64,000 nt of DNA from Enterococcus sp. DIV2402 (lineage in GTDB: Bacteria > Bacillota > Bacilli > Lactobacillales > Enterococcaceae), in the NCBI RefSeq assembly GCF_017426705.2, contig NZ_CP147251.1, forward strand, positions 741,001 to 805,000, read 5' to 3'. The notes beneath the pieces were generated by a model, which did not search any database, was not told the origin of the DNA, and worked only from the letters and a program-made list of their open reading frames with translations. A program made the position numbers and the translations under genes. Each line of letters begins with the position of its first letter. Position 1 is the stretch's first letter. Shown one piece after another: positions 36,017 to 45,248 of this stretch.

Positions 36017-36622
36017 ATGTTTACCGAAAAAAGTTTTGCAGTCTTTGAAATTGAGGGATTAGATGAACGAATGGCCGCAATTCGTGCAGAAATTCAACCG
36101 ATTTTTCAAGAATTAAATGAATATTTTAAAGAAAACTTAGCACCCGAAATGAATGACGAACTCTTTATTCATATCGCTCAGCATCGTCGCCGTAGCGTCC
36201 ATCCACCAGAAAATACTTGGTCAGCAATTAGTCGTAAGAAACGTGGCTACAAGATGGAAGCTCATTTTCAATTAGGTATTTTCCCAGAGTATGTCTTTAT
36301 GTGGTTGTCGTTGATTGATCAACCTAAAGGAAAAGAAGAAATGGCAGAGCGTTTGCTTGAACATCCTGAATGGTGGAATAATCTGCCAGAAGATATGGTT
36401 ATAAACACAGACCATACGATTTGTGCGTATGAACCGTTAACTACTGAATCGATGGAAAAAGCCTTGCAGCGATTGAAGAAAGTGAAAAAAAGTGAATTAC
36501 AAATTGGTCGTGTCATTCCCAAAGAAAGTTCCTTATGGCAAAATCCAGATCAAGCACAAGCATATATGTTAGAGACCTATCATTTATTATTAGAAATGAA
36601 CAAGGGATTACAGATAGAATAA
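36017..36622 (+). CDS. DUF1054 family protein (YktB-like)
   Basis: 201-residue soluble protein of the DUF1054/YktB family: FAVFEIEGLDERMAAIRAEI at the start, HIAQHRRRSVHPPENTWSAI and KRGYKMEAHFQLG in the middle. No biochemical function is established. TATAAT (around 35981-35990) and AGAAGGAGG precede it. Its stop codon sits directly on the 37-bp terminator repeat. Confidence 0.87.
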   Translation: MFTEKSFAVFEIEGLDERMAAIRAEIQPIFQELNEYFKENLAPEMNDELFIHIAQHRRRSVHPPENTWSAISRKKRGYKMEAHFQLGIFPEYVFMWLSLIDQPKGKEEMAERLLEHPEWWNNLPEDMVINTDHTICAYEPLTTESMEKALQRLKKVKKSELQIGRVIPKESSLWQNPDQAQAYMLETYHLLLEMNKGLQIE

Positions 36623-36657
36623 AAAGAAGCGTCGAGCATTTCTCGTACGCTTCTTTT
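36621..36657 (+). repeat. 37-bp terminator repeat, left copy
   Basis: A-rich flank, an 11-bp stem with one bulged T (GAAGCGT-CGAG / CTCG-T-ACGCTTC, 5-base loop) and T-run. It terminates the DUF1054 gene. An identical 37-base copy lies at 44613-44649, so the two copies bracket the peptide permease plus TldR block. Confidence 0.9.
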
Positions 36658-37060
36658 TGTGAGAATTTCTAAAAATAAATGCGAAGAAAGCTACTGTTGT
36701 TACTAGGATAAGTTATGAAAAAAATTATAAATGGCTTGGATTACTGGATTCGAGAAAGCAACTAAAAGCAAAGTTGTTCCATATTGGAAAAAATAGTTGG
36801 AATATAACAAGAAGAGATTAGAATATATTTTTTTCACAAAGTTTTCATTAATTGATGTCAAATAACCCTCTTTATTAAAAAATGGATAGAATGATTAAAA
36901 TTAGAGGTACAAATTAATAAATAATTATTAAAAAAAGTTGACGGCTAAAAAAAAGTTCTGTATCATTTTCTCAATACTTGATTTAATTTTCTGACAATTC
37001 CCGAATGTAAAGGGATTACAGAGGACAATTGAGTAAAAAAGAAAAAATGGAGGAGTGTAC
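36658..37060 (+). other. Long AT-rich upstream region of the Ami-type opp operon
   Basis: About 400 bases without a gene. It contains the operon promoter (36938-36966), a run of AT-rich sequence immediately upstream of it, TTTAA/TTTAT motifs on both strands that could serve as TAMs for a TnpB-type protein, and the ribosome site GGAGGAG. No further ORF or RNA gene is evident. Confidence 0.6.
36938..36966 (+). promoter_or_regulatory. Promoter of the Ami-type opp-tldR operon
   Basis: TTGACG (36938-36943), exactly 17 bases, TATCAT (36961-36966). The AT-rich stretch before the -35 could act as an UP-element. Leader of about 85 bases to the oppA start. A candidate TldR target abuts the -35 box on its upstream side. 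Confidence 0.8.
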
Positions 37061-39043
37061 ATGAAAAAAAGTAAAGTTTTGACAGCTCTTTTAGTTAGTA
37101 CGTTTGTACTTGGTGCATGCGGCAACGGAGGGGATAAAAAAGAGGGTAGTTCTGGGGGAGATAGTGAGTTAGTTAGAGAATACAATAATGTATTTGCGAC
37201 TGATTTGGAAACACTAGATTATACGTTTTCTTCACGTAAAACAAATAGTGATCACTATACGAACTTTGTTGAAGGCTTGTTAGAAAATGATCGCTATGGC
37301 AATTTGGTTCCTGCAATGGCTGAATCATGGGAAGTTAGCGAAGATGGCTTAACTTATACGTACCATATCCGTGAAGGTGTCCAATGGATGGATAGCGAAG
37401 GTAACGAATACGGTGCAGAAGTCACAGCACATGATTTTGTTACTGGTCTAAAACATGCGGTTGATAGTAATTCTGAAACATTGTACATCGTAGCCGATAG
37501 TATCAAAGGTTTAGCTGAGTATATTGACGGAAAAACGGATGATTTTTCTACAGTTGGTGTAAAAGCTGTGGATGACTATACTTTAGAATATACATTGAAT
37601 CAACCAGAATCTTACTGGAATTCCAAAACAACTTATGGCACATTATATCCAATTAACGAAGAATTCTTAACATCTAAAGGGGATGACTTTGGAAAACCTC
37701 AACCAGATGGAATTCTTTACAATGGACCATTTATCTTAGTAAATAACACAGCAAAATCTGTGATTGAATATGAAAAAAATGAAAGCTATTGGGATTTAGA
37801 TAATGTTCACATTGATTCAGTCAAATGGACATTTAATGATGGTAGTGATCCTGATGGTTTATTTAAAGCCTATCAAGATGGCACGTTGACAGCTGCTCGT
37901 GTTTATCCAAACTCAGCAGGTTATAAAGATGTTGTAGCAGAGTATCCCGATGCTATTACATGGTCAGATACAGGTGGTTCTACCTTTAATATGACGTTTA
38001 ACTTTAACCGTGGTACATTTGATGCAACGTCAAAAACAACGGATAAAGAAAAAGAAGACACACAAAAAGCGATTCGTAATCGCAATTTCCGTTTAGCTAT
38101 GCTTTTTGGATTTGATAAAACTGCATACAATGCTCAAAATGTTGGAGAAGAAGGCGCATCAAGAAGTTTACGTAATACTTTAGTGCCAACTGAATTTGTT
38201 TCAATTGATGGTAAACCTTATGGAGAAACTGTTGAAGAGAAACTAAAAGCACTTGATTCCGAAGCGTTTGGTGATATTGATTTAGCAGAAGGCCAAGATG
38301 CTTATTACAATGCTGAAAAAGCGAAAAAATATATGGACTTAGCAAAATCTGAATTAGAAGCAGATGGCGTAGAATTTCCAATTCACTTAGACTTCCCACA
38401 ATTAGAAACACGTGAAACAAACGTGAATATGGCGAAATCATTGAAACAAACAGTTGAAGCTGCTTTAGGCAAAGACAATGTTGTTATTGATATTCAATTG
38501 TTAAATCAAGATAAATATTTAGCGGCGACTTATCAAGCAACTACTGGTGAAGCTGGCGACTTTGATATTTCTAATGCCTCTGGTTGGGGACCTGACTATG
38601 TTGACCCATCTACTTACTTGAATATTTATAATTCTCGTACAGGAGAAAATATGAAAAATCTTGGTTTAGAAGGTTCAGAAGTAATTCAAGGTGAAGATCC
38701 ATCTAAAGATGCCAAAGAAAGTATTAACTTAAGTGAATACGATGCTTTATTAGATAAAGCGGCAGCAATTACTGATAATACGAATGAACGTTATACAGAT
38801 TATGCAGATGCGGAAGCTTGGTTATTAAATAATGTCCTACAAATTCCAATTTATGCAGATGAAGGTGTGCCTCGTATCACAAATGCTGTACCTTATACTA
38901 AACCAGATGGTTGGGCAGGAATTGCAGCCGATAAATTGAAATACATTGAACTTCAAGATAGCGCAGTGACTGTGGAACAATATGACAAAGCACGCGCTGA
39001 CTGGGAAGCAGAAAAAGAAAAATCAAAAGAAACAGCAGAATAG
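37061..39043 (+). CDS. Oligopeptide-binding lipoprotein, AmiA/OppA type (opp2)
   Basis: 660-residue SBP_bac_5 lipoprotein. The signal peptide ends LGAC with Cys20 as lipidation site. Family motifs: LVPAMAESWEVSEDGLTYTY, VTAHDFVTGLKHAVD, NFRLAMLFGFDKTAYN. Length and similarity fit streptococcal AmiA (about 660) rather than lactococcal OppA. ATG at 37061 follows GGAGGAG. A terminator-like hairpin directly after the gene should make this protein more abundant than the rest of the operon. In streptococci and enterococci such permeases also import signalling peptides; that role here is inference. Confidence 0.93.
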   Translation: MKKSKVLTALLVSTFVLGACGNGGDKKEGSSGGDSELVREYNNVFATDLETLDYTFSSRKTNSDHYTNFVEGLLENDRYGNLVPAMAESWEVSEDGLTYTYHIREGVQWMDSEGNEYGAEVTAHDFVTGLKHAVDSNSETLYIVADSIKGLAEYIDGKTDDFSTVGVKAVDDYTLEYTLNQPESYWNSKTTYGTLYPINEEFLTSKGDDFGKPQPDGILYNGPFILVNNTAKSVIEYEKNESYWDLDNVHIDSVKWTFNDGSDPDGLFKAYQDGTLTAARVYPNSAGYKDVVAEYPDAITWSDTGGSTFNMTFNFNRGTFDATSKTTDKEKEDTQKAIRNRNFRLAMLFGFDKTAYNAQNVGEEGASRSLRNTLVPTEFVSIDGKPYGETVEEKLKALDSEAFGDIDLAEGQDAYYNAEKAKKYMDLAKSELEADGVEFPIHLDFPQLETRETNVNMAKSLKQTVEAALGKDNVVIDIQLLNQDKYLAATYQATTGEAGDFDISNASGWGPDYVDPSTYLNIYNSRTGENMKNLGLEGSEVIQGEDPSKDAKESINLSEYDALLDKAAAITDNTNERYTDYADAEAWLLNNVLQIPIYADEGVPRITNAVPYTKPDGWAGIAADKLKYIELQDSAVTVEQYDKARADWEAEKEKSKETAE

Positions 39044-39110: not shown

Positions 39111-40598
39111 TTGAAGCGATACCTTTTATTTAGGATATTACGATCAATCCTCAGTATTTTCCTAGTCACAACACTAACGTATACAATTATCTATTCGTTA
39201 GTTCCTCGTAGAGCTGTCTTTCAAGATGATGTTCAATACGGGAAATTAAAAGGAAAACCTGATGAATTAGCAGAATATGAAAATACAGCGTTCAGTAAGA
39301 TGGGATATATTGAATATTACAATTCAAAAAAATTAGTTGATACTGTGAAAAAAGAACATCCAGAAGTTTCTGGAGAACCAACAGCAGAAAATCAACAAAT
39401 TTTAGAAGAATGGACAAAAGAAAATGGGTGGGATTTAAAACAATTCCCGCTTAATAAAACGTACTATGCTACGAAAGATGTTCCTTTACCAAAACGTGTG
39501 TATCGTTTTTATGCCAATATGCTACAAATTGATCATCCATGGAAGGTGCAAGATCCAGATAATCCGGATATGAAACGCTCCCTACGTATTACGAACGATG
39601 AATTGGCAGGCTGGGCTTTAGTTGGTTCAGGTACGCAATATAAATATCAAATCTATTTTGATAAACAATTTCCGTATATTCATCAAAATATCGTGCACTT
39701 AGACTTAGGGATTTCTTACCCTACCTTTGCTGGTCGTAATGTAACAGAAGTGATTGGCGGTGGACAAGGAAAATCAGACAGCCAAGAAGTGACCTTTGCA
39801 AATGGTAAGACTTCTCGTTCTTCTGTTGATGTTTATTCAAGACAATATCAAATGACGAGCCAATTGTCAGAAAGAGACAAACAATTGTATGGTGATAATT
39901 ATGCACATACAGATAAAAATTACCGAGATCCATCAATGATTGGAATTTCATTCAGAATGGGTGTTATTGCGGTATTGCTTGCTTATGGAATTGGAATTCC
40001 TTTGGCAATGTTTATGGCTCGTTTTAAAGGGAAATTACCAGATAAAATGGGAATTGGATTGGTCACTGTGTTAATTTCAGTACCAAGCTTAGCCTTTATC
40101 TACTTCTTCCGCTTTATCGGTAGTCGTTTATTTAATCTCCCAGATTCATTCCCGACATTTGGTGCCGGAGATATTCGTTCTTATATATTACCAACAGTTA
40201 TTTTAGGGTTATTATCGATTTCAAATATTATTATTTGGATTCGTCGTTATATGATTGATCAACAATCCGCAGATTATGTAAAATTTGCCAAAGCAAAAGG
40301 ATTGAATTCACGCGAAATTGCGCGCAAACATATCTTTAAAAATGCTGCAATTCCAATTGTTAACCAAATTCCAATGAGTATTATTGGTGCTATTACTGGA
40401 GCAACAATGACTGAAACAATTTTTGCTGCACCTGGTATGGGTAAAATGTTACCCGATGCCATTCAAGCGCATAATAATCCAGTTGTAATGGCGATTGTTT
40501 TTGTCTTTACCACTGTCGCAGTTACCTCTGTATTGATTGGTGATTTAGCAATGGCGATGGTTGACCCAAGAATTAATTTAGCAGAAGGAGGGAAATAA
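39111..40598 (+). CDS. Oligopeptide permease membrane protein, AmiC/OppB type (opp2)
   Basis: About 495 residues from a TTG start (39111) preceded by AGGGGAAG; no ATG is well placed. After the first membrane helix (residues about 5-28) there is an unusually long, mostly polar, probably extracellular insert of about 250 residues before the five C-terminal helices (from about [18 protein letters not shown]). Streptococcal AmiC has the same size and layout. The coupling loop with [20 protein letters not shown] is intact. Confidence 0.92.
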
Positions 40599-40600
40599 CC

Positions 40601-41536
40601 GTGGAAACTTCAGAAAAGAAAATCAATGACGGCTTTACTTTTGTTTCAACTGATTCCCTGACTTCGGAAAAGATTGATACACCAACATATTCTTATTGGC
40701 GTTCAGTAGGAAGAAAGTTTTTTTCTAGTAAGGTAGCTATTGCAATGCTCATTTTAATGGTGGCTATTTTATTAATGGCATTTATTCAACCTATGTTTAG
40801 TGGGTATGACTTTATGAACGTAGATGATATTAATGACTTTTCAAAACGATACAATCCACCAAGCATGCAAGAATGGTTTGGTACAGATAAAAACGGAATG
40901 TCTTTATTTGATGCTGTCTGGGCAGGGGCTAAAACATCGATTTCAATCAGTGTGTTAGCAACCTTAATTACCACAGTGATTGGTGTGGTTGTTGGCGCAA
41001 TTTGGGGCACGTCTAAAAAAATCGACCGGGTTATGTTAGAAGTGTACAACGTTATTACTAACGTACCGCAATTATTAATTATCATGGTACTATCGTATAC
41101 GTTTGGTAGTGGTTTTTGGAACTTGATTTTTGCGATGTGTGTTACAGGATGGCTTAACACAGCTTATTTCATTCGTGTTCAAGTAATGATTATGCGTGAT
41201 CGAGAATATAACTTAGCGTCCAAAACATTAGGTACACCATCTATGCGAATGATTGTCCGTAATATCTTACCGTATTTAACATCGATTATTGTGACGAATG
41301 TCTCACAGTCATTGCCAGCGTTTATTTCTTATGAAACGTTCTTATCCTTCTTAGGTGTTGGTTTAAGTGCTGACGTTCCATCATTAGGTAAATTAATTTC
41401 AGAATACACAAATAACATGAGCAACTACCCGTATCTATTTTGGATTCCAGTTACTGTTTTGGCCTTAGTTTCTGTTTCTCTTTACATTGTTGGACAGACA
41501 TTGGCGGATGCTGCTGATCCAAGAACACATATGTAA
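40601..41536 (+). CDS. Oligopeptide permease membrane protein, AmiD/OppC type (opp2)
   Basis: 311-residue permease partner. GTG start with GGAGGG upstream, two bases after the previous stop. First helix at about residues 45-65, then the landmark [20 protein letters not shown], the coupling loop [16 protein letters not shown], and a C terminus typical of OppC/AmiD. Confidence 0.93.
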
Positions 41537-41547
41537 GGAGGCACACT

Positions 41548-42627
41548 ATGGAGAAAAAAACAATTTTAAAAGCTGAAAATATTTCTGTAAGCTTTAGAGT
41601 GCGTAATCGCGAGCTACGTGCAATTCGAAATGTTTCGCTTGAATTGAAAGAGCAAGAGACACTAGCCATTGTTGGTGAATCTGGCTCTGGAAAATCTGTG
41701 CTTACCAAAACATTTACAGGTATGCTAGAAACAAACGGTTCAATTACAAGTGGAACAATCGAATATCAAGGTAAAAATTTAGCAGCTTTGAAAAAAGATG
41801 AAGAATGGGATGGCATTCGAGGAAAAGAAATTGCGACTATTTTCCAGGACCCAATGACTTCGTTAAATCCAATTAAAACAATTGGCTCACAAATTACGGA
41901 AGTTATTATCAAACATCAAGGGAAATCAGCTAAGGAAGCCAAAAGAATGGCCATTGATTTAATGGACCGTACAGGGATTCCCAATGCTGAAAAACGATAT
42001 GATGAATATCCTTTTCAATACTCTGGAGGGATGCGTCAACGAATTGTTATAGCGATTGCGTTAGCTTGTCGTCCTAAGATTTTGATTTGTGATGAACCAA
42101 CGACAGCTTTAGACGTAACTATTCAAGCTCAAATTTTGGAGTTAATTCGTGAATTACAAGAAGAATATAAATTTACAACAATTTTTATCACACATGATTT
42201 AGGTGTGGTAGCAGCAATTGCTGATAAAGTTGCTGTTATGTATGCCGGACAAATTATTGAAACAGGAACCGTAGAAGAAATTTTCTATGATCCTCGTCAT
42301 CCATATACATGGAGCTTGTTATCGTCATTACCACAATTAGGTCAAAAAGGGGACGAACTTTATTCTGTTCCAGGAACACCACCTTCTTTATATAAAGAAA
42401 TTAAAGGAGACGCCTTTGCGCCACGTAGTGCTTATGCAATGCAAGTTGACTTTGATAATGAACCACCTATGTTTCAAGTAACAGAAACGCATTTTGCTAA
42501 AACATGGTTGCTTGATCCTCGTGCGCCGAAAGCTGAAAAACCAGAGCTGATACAAGGGCTGCATGAAAAATTAGTCGCATTAACAGAAATAACTGAATTA
42601 AATGATGGAGGGGAAGTTCGTGTCTAA
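41548..42627 (+). CDS. Oligopeptide ABC transporter ATPase, AmiE/OppD type (opp2)
   Basis: 359-residue ATPase: Walker [11 protein letters not shown]-loop [10 protein letters not shown], signature [12 protein letters not shown], Walker [14 protein letters not shown]-loop THD. The C-terminal oligopeptide extension is present ([18 protein letters not shown]) but lacks the cysteine cluster seen in OppD of opp1, as in streptococcal AmiE. AAGGAGG before the ATG. Confidence 0.93.
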
Positions 42628-43558
42628 AGAAAAAGAAGTCATTTTATCGGTTAAAGATTTAGAGATTACTTTTGGTGAAGGTAAGAAAAAATTTGTTGCC
42701 GTACAAGATGCCAATTTTGATATTTACAAAGGAGAAACTTTCTCTTTAGTTGGCGAATCCGGCTCTGGAAAGACAACCATTGGCCGTGCGATTGTTGGAT
42801 TAAATGAAACCAGCAATGGCGATATTCTGTTTGAAGGAAAACGGATTAATGGAAAATTAACCAAAAAAGAACAAGAAGATAAAATTCGTAAAATTCAAAT
42901 GATTTTTCAAGACCCATCGGCTTCTTTAAATGAGCGTGCGACTGTCGAATATATTATTTCTGAAGGATTGTATAATTTTAACCTGTTTAAAAATGAAGAA
43001 GAACGTATAGCAAAAGTTGAAAAGTTAATCGAACAAGTTGGTTTATTACCGGAGCATATGTATCGTTATCCACATGAATTTTCTGGCGGACAAAGACAAC
43101 GTATTGGTATTGCTCGGGCATTAATTATGGAACCATCACTAGTTGTAGCGGATGAGCCTATTTCAGCATTAGATGTGTCTATTCGTGCACAAGTATTAAA
43201 TCTATTGAAAAAGTCACAAATAGAAGACGATGTTACCTATTTCTTTGTAGCCCATGATCTATCTGTGGTGCGTTTTATTTCTGACCGTATTGCGGTTATT
43301 CGTGCAGGAAGAATTTTAGAATTAGCAGAAACAGAAGAGCTTTTTATGAATCCATTACATCCATATACAAAAGCATTGTTATCGGCTGTCCCAATTCCAG
43401 ATCCAATTTTAGCACGTAAGAAAAAATTAGTTGTTTATAATCCCAATATGCACGATTATTCAAAAGATAAGCCAAGTTTTGAAGAAGTAAAACCAGGTCA
43501 TTATGTCTATGGAAATGCACTAGAATTAGCAGGTTATCGCGCAGCTGTTAAAAATTAG
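42620..43558 (+). CDS. Oligopeptide ABC transporter ATPase, AmiF/OppF type (opp2)
   Basis: 312-residue ATPase: Walker [10 protein letters not shown], signature [14 protein letters not shown], Walker [16 protein letters not shown] 42620 is chosen as start because GGAGGGG lies 6 bases before it; an in-frame ATG at 42602 precedes the ribosome site. It overlaps oppD2 by 8 bases. The TnpB-like gene starts 20 bases after its stop and so shares the transcript. Confidence 0.93.
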
Positions 43559-43578: not shown

Positions 43579-44499
43579 ATGGGGGTCTTAAAGGCATATC
43601 GCTTTAGAATTTATCCCGATGCAGAACAAAAACAGTTTTTTATTCAAACATTTGGTTGTGTTCGTTTTACCTATAACCATCTTTTGATGCATCGCAAGCA
43701 AAACAGTGAAAGTAAATTAACGCCAGCGCTATTAAAAAAAGATTATCCGTTTTTAAAAGATACAGATAGTTTGGCTTTGTCGAATGCTCAACGTAATTTA
43801 GAGAAAGCATTTCGTCGTTATTACAGTGGTCAAAGTGGTTTTCCAAATTTAAAAAATAAATCGAATATGTGGCAATCATATACAACAAACAATCAAAAAC
43901 ATACGATTTATTTTGAAGATGATAAGTTGAAATTACCAAAACTAAAATCACTTGTCGATGTGAATTTGCATCGTAAAATAAAAGGCGAAATTAAATCAGC
44001 AACAATTTCTGCTAGAAATACAGAAGAGTTCTATGTTTCAATTTTATGTATCGAAGAAGTTGAAAAATTAGAAAAAACACATCGTAAAATTGAGATTTCA
44101 TATTGTCCTAAACATCTGGTTCATTTTTCAGAAGAAATTTGTCCGATTCACTTTAATCAAGAAAAATTATTGGGACAAATTAATCACGCGAAACGGAAAT
44201 TACGATTACGTGCAAAAATTGCGAAGAAACGGAAAGTTTTATTAGCAAATGCTAAAAATTATCAAAAACAAAAAGAAAAAATGAATCGACTTCTGGTTCG
44301 ACGCAAATATAAAAAGGAAGATTTTATTAATCAACTCTCTTATTTTCTAGTCGAGAATTTTGATTACATTTTCGTGCAAGAGAATAATTCAGAGGATAAG
44401 TATCTGAAACAGGAATTTACGTCAAATGATTGGCAACAGTTTTTAAGTAAGTTGCGTTATAAATCAGAGTGGTATGGAAAACAAGTAATTATTAGCTAA
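43579..44499 (+). CDS. tldR: TnpB-like nuclease-dead protein (TldR), probable RNA-guided repressor
   Basis: 306 residues. The N terminus KAYRFRIYPDAEQKQFFIQT with FGCVRFTYNHLL is a classic TnpB/OrfB (IS200/IS605) start, and the wedge/REC-like part (to about 170) and basic helices (200-245) are intact. RuvC-I reads IEISYCPKHLVHF (171-183), with Ser174 where TnpB has the catalytic Asp. RuvC-II reads IFVQENN (264-270), with Gln267 in place of Glu. The protein ends after YKSEWYGKQVIIS, so the zinc ribbon and RuvC-III Asp are gone. The frame itself is open and intact. Nuclease-dead, C-terminally truncated TnpB homologues beside oppF are what was described in enterococci as TldR. No tnpA is nearby. 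Weak ribosome site (GGTG), suggesting low translation. Function as an RNA-guided transcription repressor is inferred from the family. Confidence 0.9.
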   Translation: MGVLKAYRFRIYPDAEQKQFFIQTFGCVRFTYNHLLMHRKQNSESKLTPALLKKDYPFLKDTDSLALSNAQRNLEKAFRRYYSGQSGFPNLKNKSNMWQSYTTNNQKHTIYFEDDKLKLPKLKSLVDVNLHRKIKGEIKSATISARNTEEFYVSILCIEEVEKLEKTHRKIEISYCPKHLVHFSEEICPIHFNQEKLLGQINHAKRKLRLRAKIAKKRKVLLANAKNYQKQKEKMNRLLVRRKYKKEDFINQLSYFLVENFDYIFVQENNSEDKYLKQEFTSNDWQQFLSKLRYKSEWYGKQVIIS

Positions 44500-44612
44500 A
44501 CCAAAAAGTAAGGTAAGAACTGGAAGGGGCGCCAGGGATAGCCTAGGTTATAGAAAAAATTGAACGATTTTTGTTTCTAGGAATTTCTGCCCACTAATTA
44601 TGAAAAATCATA
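44500..44612 (+). ncRNA. Omega-RNA-like guide RNA downstream of tldR
   Basis: Region directly after the tldR stop, where TnpB-family guide RNAs are encoded; the 5' end may lie inside tldR. Visible structure: GGGC (44527-44530) can pair with GCCC (44589-44592), enclosing an imperfect hairpin closed by CCTAG (44542-44546) and CTAGG (44577-44581) with an AAAAAT/ATTTTT inner stem. Then comes AATTTCTGCCCACTAA, then the small hairpin TTATGA-AAAA-TCATAA (44598-44613), then a terminator. The guide should be the last bases before or at the small hairpin; a guide beginning TAATTATG (44595) is one possibility. Scaffold boundaries are inferred, not observed. Confidence 0.7.
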
Positions 44613-44649
44613 AAAAAGAAGCGTCGAGCATTTCTCGTACGCTTCTTTT
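44613..44649. repeat. 37-bp terminator repeat, right copy
   Basis: Identical over 37 bases to 36621-36657. Here it terminates the opp2-tldR-guide RNA transcript and, because it is symmetrical, also bioY, which converges from the right. Confidence 0.9.
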
Positions 44650-44651
44650 GT

Positions 44652-45194
44652 TTATCTCGTTACTAAAAATTTTTCAGGTAATCGTTGAATTAAAAAGACA
44701 CCCAGTGTTCCAGCGACTACAGCTTTAATAATTTCTGGAATTAAGAAAGTAATAAAGCCACCTGAAAGGGCAGCAGCCCATGTCATATCGGTAGCAAATT
44801 TTAGCCAAATACTTCCAAATAACAAGGTAATGATAAAACCAATTAAGTTAGCTGAAATAACCCAAAAATAGGTTGTAGGGACTTTTTTTAATAAGGTACC
44901 AAGGATAAGTCCTGTGAATACAAAACCGATTAAATAGCCACCTGTTGGCCCTAGAATAGAAGCAATACCGCTACCAAAGCCAGCATAGACAGGCAAACCG
45001 ATGAGACCGAGTAATAAATAAATGATAATTGCCCAAGTTCCCACTTTACGTCCTAAAATCGTAACGGTTAAACCGACGATAAATGTTTGCATACTAAATG
45101 GAACTACGCCAATAGGAATCACAATTTGTGAAAAAACAGCAATGATTCCAGCGAATATGGCTGCTGTAATTTGTTCTTTTAAAGATAATTTCAT
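44652..45194 (-). CDS. bioY: Biotin transporter substrate-binding subunit BioY
   Basis: 180-residue S-component of an ECF transporter, with six hydrophobic segments and the BioY signature around GLIGLPVYAGFGSGIASILGP and GGYLIGFVF. It binds biotin and uses the shared ECF module encoded elsewhere. ATG 45194 is chosen (AAAGTGAG upstream); a GTG four codons earlier is in frame. The promoter overlaps a BirA-type operator, so it should be repressed when biotin is sufficient. Confidence 0.93.
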   Translation of the reverse strand: MKLSLKEQITAAIFAGIIAVFSQIVIPIGVVPFSMQTFIVGLTVTILGRKVGTWAIIIYLLLGLIGLPVYAGFGSGIASILGPTGGYLIGFVFTGLILGTLLKKVPTTYFWVISANLIGFIITLLFGSIWLKFATDMTWAAALSGGFITFLIPEIIKAVVAGTLGVFLIQRLPEKFLVTR

Positions 45195-45248
45195 ACATAC
45201 ACTCACTTTCTGTAAACCTAAAATTTTATTTTTGTTAACGATGAATTG

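Follow-up and report, generated by a model that had tools for sequence, protein, structure and literature searches.

A conserved nuclease-dead TnpB homologue and its predicted guide RNA as a putative autorepressor of an enterococcal peptide permease operon

The last gene of a peptide permease operon in the window (the whole 64-kb stretch of DNA analyzed here) is, on comparative evidence, a genuine TnpB derivative without nuclease residues, TldR, which is conserved and has its own guide RNA. It is very probable (roughly 0.84) that TldR and this RNA act as an RNA-guided autorepressor of the permease operon via TTTAA+TAATTAT at the −35 region. Autorepression is the best reading of the sequence and its relatives because the catalytic residues are lost, the gene is under purifying selection, the RNA covaries, its guide matches 7 nt at the promoter, and tldR and the site occur together. 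A preliminary description of this DNA had left the guide and its target unnamed; both are identified here as a predicted pair (Table 1).

Table 1. Positions of the opp-tldR unit and its predicted regulatory features in the window
Feature	Position	Strand	Basis
Predicted TldR target core TTTAATAATTA	36922..36932	−	TAM TTTAA, 36928–36932; seed TAATTA, 36922–36927
Likely oppA promoter (TTGACG, 17 bp, TATCAT)	36938..36966	+	−35 is 5 bp from the TAM
oppA, peptide-binding lipoprotein	37061..39043	+	PF00496; ATG 37061 after GGAGG; ORF opens at GTG 37055
oppB, permease	39114..40598	+	PF00528; ORF opens at TTG 39078
oppC, permease	40601..41536	+	PF00528, PF12911
oppD, ATPase	41548..42627	+	PF00005, PF08352
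oppF, ATPase	42602..43558	+	PF00005, PF08352
tldR, TnpB homologue without catalytic residues	43579..44499	+	Pfam, profile, structure, dN/dS
Guide-RNA scaffold, Ref70 homologue, ends ..CCAC	44518..44594	+	Ref70 match, covariation
Predicted guide TAATTATGAAAAATCA	44595..44610	+	First 7 nt match target; scaffold end from ISEfa4 right ends
Terminator-like hairpin closing the opp-tldR unit	44613..44649	+	Fold and sequence; not in the terminator-scan list

TldR is a TnpB homologue without a nuclease active site

The ATG of tldR lies 20 nt past the oppF stop at 43558, and its 306-aa product bears out the preliminary description of a TnpB-homologous ORF directly after oppF. The TnpB-like N terminus noted there corresponds to PF12323 (HTH_OrfB_IS605, 61 bits), the sole Pfam match of the protein. 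A profile of 11 relatives matched ISDra2 TnpB (8h1j) at 4.7e-38, with profile positions 5–304 aligned to chain residues 7–318 of 410. In the alignment to 8h1j, codon 174 is TCA (Ser) where RuvC-I has Asp, codon 267 is CAA (Gln) where RuvC-II has Glu, and the C-terminal end precedes the zinc ribbon, so that the zinc ribbon and RuvC-III are absent; both substitutions and the early end had been read from the sequence beforehand and are confirmed at these positions. Structure prediction and alignment against TnpB had been proposed as checks and were both run: the AlphaFold2 model (60 sequences) reached a mean pLDDT of 93.3 and a pTM of 0.68, and the best PDB matches in Foldseek were the TnpB-RNA complexes 8h1j, 8exa, and 8bf8, with moderate TM scores of 0.52–0.54 (query length). 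The window protein thus lacks what marks an active IS605 TnpB (RuvC D/E/D plus zinc ribbon) and has what marks a TldR, i.e., TnpB homology across the RNA- and DNA-binding lobes (the 8h1j profile match and TnpB as the top Foldseek hit), an inactivated RuvC site (S174, Q267, RuvC-III absent), stable linkage to non-transposon genes (oppF) with no transposase in the window, an adjacent guide RNA (44518–44610), and a guide that agrees with TTTAA plus 7 nt at the likely oppA −35, a short match.

In a tblastn search of the 64-kb window with ISEfa4 TnpA and TnpB, neither a tnpA nor another tnpB was found, as had been claimed for tnpA; the nearby intact IS605 parent that would speak against domestication was likewise not found within these 64 kb. 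The NCBIfam guided_TnpB model matches TldR at 131.8 bits (cut-off, 100), and NCBI naming would therefore call the protein an endonuclease. A protein collection holds an identical sequence (JGI, 'putative transposase'), plus one that is 97% and one that is 83% identical.

The operon that hosts tldR

The opp operon of the window is of a separate type, distinct from the usual oppF-tldR host: both OppA (662 aa) and OppB (494–506 aa) are longer. A promoter scan returned 31 promoter-like matches, the likely oppA promoter being among the two that matched at 10/12; since shuffles gave 31.8 matches, the scan alone is no evidence for this promoter. Just 3′ of it, at 36985–36999, is the CodY-box-like AATTTTCTGACAATT, which deviates by one mismatch from the CodY-box consensus; at two or fewer mismatches, the window contains 2 such boxes vs. 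1.9 expected. An identical 37-base terminator-like hairpin stands at 36621–36657, where it ends the gene before the operon, and at 44613–44649, after the guide RNA; the two copies form a direct repeat around the opp-tldR unit. The terminator scan missed both of these evident hairpins (36621 and 44613); its silence between oppF and tldR therefore carries no weight. The unit is followed on the opposite strand by a gene (44652–45206) that is presumably BioY-like; an NCBIfam search gave no match for it, and relatives of this gene lie beside the long-type operon in genomes G065 (91%), G068, and G070 (56–58%).

tldR is maintained by selection in related genomes

A match at 1e-80 was found in 77 of 105 family genomes, a count that includes both TldRs and intact TnpBs. 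In 52 of 61 TldR loci, oppF is within about 0.7 kb upstream of tldR, mostly in the usual opp operon. The second, long-OppA operon hosts tldR in the window, G065, G068, G069, and G070, and G065 has both operon types. In a tree of 59 of the 71 proteins, from which near-identical copies, fragments, and two distant TnpBs had been removed, the window-type TldRs form one five-row subclade nested among the usual-operon TldRs (support 99/90). The RuvC-I Asp is missing from every TldR row readable at RuvC-I; the RuvC-II Glu is retained in many usual-operon TldRs, and the five rows of the window's subclade have Q, Q, D, D, and T. Control TnpB rows carry Asp and Glu in 9/9 and the zinc ribbon and RDINA in 8/9 (L090 is a broken frame), and all 10 TnpBs read from tldR-less genomes retain every catalytic feature (in G016, one of five TnpB-like hits was read for catalytic residues, the other four being partial).

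By the Nei-Gojobori method, dN/dS between the window tldR and its copy in G065, the closest genome compared, was 0.073 (dS 1.16). Values ranged from 0.016 to 0.135 in 20 of 25 pairs, those with dS > 0.1, several of which are saturated; four pairs with dS < 0.03 gave 0 to 0.25 on few changes, and one further pair was not computable. The missing Asp and the low ratios in the 20 pairs support the proposal of a domesticated TnpB maintained by selection. Neutral decay of the frame had been named as a finding that would overturn it; the frame is open in most relatives, though a few copies are broken, including locus L088, which has an in-frame TAG. L058 (G058) has a frame that stops after 228 codons yet retains its guide RNA and the site at oppA.

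A third location of tldR, in G047, G049, G050, G051, G054, G069, and G070 (L102 and L104–L109), lacks an adjacent peptide permease; from the look of its neighbors, we take it to be near rlmN. A guide RNA accompanies 5/7 of these copies, and the third-location guide of G049 and G051 matches 9 nt at an unlinked long-type oppA. In G052 (L101, L085), tldR is upstream of a long-type oppA that lacks the site, and no guide RNA was recognized for this copy; G052 has a second tldR, whose guide RNA may serve the guide-less copy. The TldRs of the faecalis/avium group (L110–L120) have longer C-terminal tails that resemble RuvC-III remnants. They group with ISEfa4 TnpB (90/82) in a tree with long branches, rooted by two IS605 TnpBs (20 main-clade TldRs, 6 of the 11 faecalis/avium TldRs, 5 ISEfa4, and the 2 outgroup TnpBs), a grouping that would imply two possible domestications at oppF.

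A predicted guide RNA related to Ref70 follows tldR

The region 44518–44609 is conserved among relatives downstream of tldR. The Rfam family Ref70 (RF02841) matches positions 44514–44606 with 37 bits (E value 5.4e-05), short of the gathering score, 115; as judged from this match, the window RNA is a Ref70 homologue and not a scored Rfam member. Directly after tldR, Ref70 exceeds the gathering score in five of seven loci of the faecalis/avium type; the threshold was not reached in L113, L114, L008, L062, and L067. Covariation was measured on 41 of 54 guide RNAs (the pattern missed four others, L048, L053, L056, and L080): 96.8% of the cells in the fold are paired, and 52 cells are doubly changed vs. 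12.1 in shuffles, none of 500 shuffles being as high. A pseudoknot helix between the loop and the 3′ end, spotted by eye on the same 41 sequences, is 98.2% paired, with both partners changed in two of the four base pairs.

The borders of guide and target were taken from ISEfa4, whose copies start with TTTAAC on the left in 5/7 and end with GTTCAC on the right in 7/7. The scaffold end was placed before the guide because the ISEfa4 right ends are GTTCAC, and TTTAA is suggested as the TAM because the copies share the left start TTTAAC, the C of which can be assigned to either side of the boundary. The guide begins with TAATTAT in all 58 tldR loci in which one was recognized. In the faecalis/avium group, the pattern recognized a guide in 8 of the 11 loci, all beginning with TAATTAT, and gave none in the other three. 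No guide was recognizable in 3 of 61 tldR loci (L085, L088, and L089), which counts against autorepression. The main clade conserves guide nucleotides 8–15 (mostly GAnAAACC; 44602–44609 in the window), yet these do not match the target, a further point against autorepression.

The start of the guide matches a site upstream of oppA

On the minus strand, TTTAA, as in the left flank of ISEfa4, is followed by the 7-nt guide seed, the seventh matching base being at 36921; TTTAA+TAATTAT thus occupies 36921–36932, 5 bp from the −35 TTGACG (36938). The 11-mer TTTAATAATTA occurs once in the 64-kb window. A longer target was not found besides the guide itself when 20 nt around the guide were searched in the window at three or fewer mismatches; 12-mers common to the guide region and the locus resembled chance or the terminator, and a plus-strand target in the window was dropped in favor of the minus-strand TTTAA site.

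Of the 62 tldR loci that include oppA, 61 have TTTAATAATTA in the 350 bp preceding that gene, the sole exception being G052/L085, which is also without a recognized guide RNA. In tldR-less genomes (n = 18), by comparison, the site was in none of 20 oppA upstream regions. Shuffling six single AT-rich 350-bp regions produced it in 13 to 36 of 3000 sequences. These counts come from related lineages and not from independent samples; oppA starts come from alignment and are in part inaccurate, one tldR-less region (G016) spans only 235 bp, and for L059 the second-oppA distance is unsound, as that gene begins beyond the locus boundary, the first entry for L059 being sound. The syntenic operon of G034 lacks both tldR and the oppA site; gene order is kept, and the upstream neighbor, oppA, and oppF are 90–92%, 81–85%, and 85–90% identical to relatives.

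The position of the site differs by locus type. In usual operons, it is on the plus strand about 71–92 bp before the oppA start, and reading by eye of three such loci (L002, L008, and L009) placed it inside the −35/−10 spacer; it is on the minus strand in faecalis/avium loci (about 51–57 bp before oppA) and in window-type loci (about 122–148 bp). Long-type oppA genes have the site within 330 bp in 15 of 18 cases in tldR genomes vs. 0 of 3 in tldR-less genomes.

Several observations were counted against autorepression. The site is missing upstream of long-type oppA in G037, G052, and G063 (the remaining 3 of 18). Where long-type oppA has the site and no adjacent tldR, the site is at −211 to −294 in 9 of 10 cases, away from the likely promoter (the exception, in G001, is at −119, by the −35). 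Second oppA paralogues in tldR genomes have the site in 1 of 20. The match between guide and target is short, 6–7 nt in the main clade and 7–9 nt in the faecalis/avium group, and co-variation of guide and target beyond nucleotide 7 was not seen by eye across the loci.

Sites elsewhere in the genomes

Of the 105 genomes, 14 with tldR and 9 without it were searched for the site genome-wide. In the former, 18 of 92 sites precede peptide-binding-protein genes (0.15 expected); in the latter, 0 of 88 do (0.11 expected), a difference with a Fisher p of 3e-6; non-independence of sites from the same lineage limits this comparison. Counting one site for each genome accounts for 14 of the 18, and nearly all of these 14 are the oppA sites that had motivated the test; among the tldR genomes, 12 of 14 have only one site-bearing peptide-binding-protein gene, and more were found only in G065 (4) and G001 (2). 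The sole hit new in this test is G065:2411707. Of seven sites in G065, four are upstream of SBP_bac_5 genes at four separate loci, one is 104 bp before a purA-like gene, and two are within ORFs. Read by eye, the other sites of G011 are within ORFs (3/3), one in G049 is about 110 bp before an amino-acid ABC transporter-like gene, and one in G009 is beside an OppD-like ORF.

Discussion

In the proposed mechanism, tldR and its guide RNA would derive from the operon transcript, consistent with the 20-nt gap to oppF. The RNA-protein complex would open the DNA at the oppA site without cutting, and the bound TldR complex would block RNA polymerase at the −35. The outcome would be negative feedback, whereby more operon transcript yields more TldR and guide RNA, which in turn lower the permease; the same guide may act in trans at other site-bearing peptide-transporter promoters. 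A broader proposal, which we put forward tentatively and hold to be somewhat short of even odds, is that a single natural CRISPRi-like guide (TTTAA+TAATTA, 6–7 nt) runs a peptide-nutrition regulon comprising its own permease and, in some species, unlinked transporters in trans, with Ref70 as the faecalis-type guide RNA. In this scenario, different permease operons would have captured tldR anew, and the site would then have arisen in their promoters at new positions and in new orientations.

The same data bear on other readings. TTTAATAATTA might be the operator of a conventional DNA-binding protein that accompanies tldR, the TldR target being elsewhere, and the window site does form part of a perfect palindrome, TTTAATAATTATTAAA, of the kind that dimeric repressors typically have. 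However, only the asymmetric TTTAA+TAATTA is invariant, the sites of Tetragenococcus and E. italicus/sulfureus are not palindromic, the site equals the left TTTAA of ISEfa4 plus the first six guide bases, and G034, which is without tldR, is also without the site; we consider an operator improbable. Slightly less probable again is that TldR activates or times the operon instead of repressing it. The window site, just upstream of the −35 and not over it, would suit activation, but the spacer position in the three usual-operon loci is where binding should exclude polymerase, and the TldR tested elsewhere represses (PMC13418256).

There is very little to be said for tldR as a decaying TnpB relic that hitchhikes by its linkage to oppF. 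Broken copies do exist (the truncated L058, L088 with its TAG, and L085 and L089 without a recognized guide RNA), and the dN/dS of up to 0.25 in the four closest pairs rests on too few changes for judgment, whereas the 20 more distant pairs show purifying selection, most frames are open, the guide is conserved, and the RNA covaries. Autorepression, if true, would give a transposon-derived RNA-guided protein, which the NCBI model names an endonuclease, a housekeeping role in nutrient uptake, and the sRNA Ref70 would gain a likely partner and function. With the coordinates of guide, TAM, and promoter, RNA-guided autoregulation can be tested directly in Gram-positive bacteria.

Wiegand and colleagues are said to have described oppF-associated TldRs of enterococci in Nature in 2024. 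The window gene is like these in being a nuclease-dead TnpB directly after oppF in Enterococcaceae; it differs in that its subclade sits behind a long-OppA operon, has the site in reverse orientation, and has additionally lost the RuvC-II Glu. Our literature search found no paper on oppF TldRs, on Ref70 as an RNA, or on a link between Ref70 and TldR; term searches of the available text found neither 'oppF' nor 'Enterococc' in PMC13418256, and no 'Ref70' in the main texts of the E. faecalis RNA papers PMC10117718 and PMC7724050. What appears to be new here is the guide RNA with Ref70 homology, the predicted oppA-promoter target, and the long-OppA operon variant.

Among known elements, Ref70 (RF02841, an Enterococcus sRNA), which matches the window guide RNA below threshold, is listed by Rfam only as an sRNA gene. 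The TnpB of ISEfa4 (IS200/IS605, including a copy on an E. faecium plasmid) is about 44% identical to TldR, and the element shares with the window TTTAA at the left and a scaffold ending in TTCAC; unlike TldR, it has an intact RuvC and zinc ribbon, with tnpA adjacent in L012, and the sequence past its scaffold varies between copies. The fliC-associated TldR of Enterobacter prophages is likewise a nuclease-dead TnpB that represses a promoter under RNA guidance, as is predicted here, and a guide or seed of 6 nt suffices for its repression (PMC13418256). According to the same text, that TldR is phage-borne and targets the flagellin of its host, whereas the window tldR would act on the operon of which it is the last gene.
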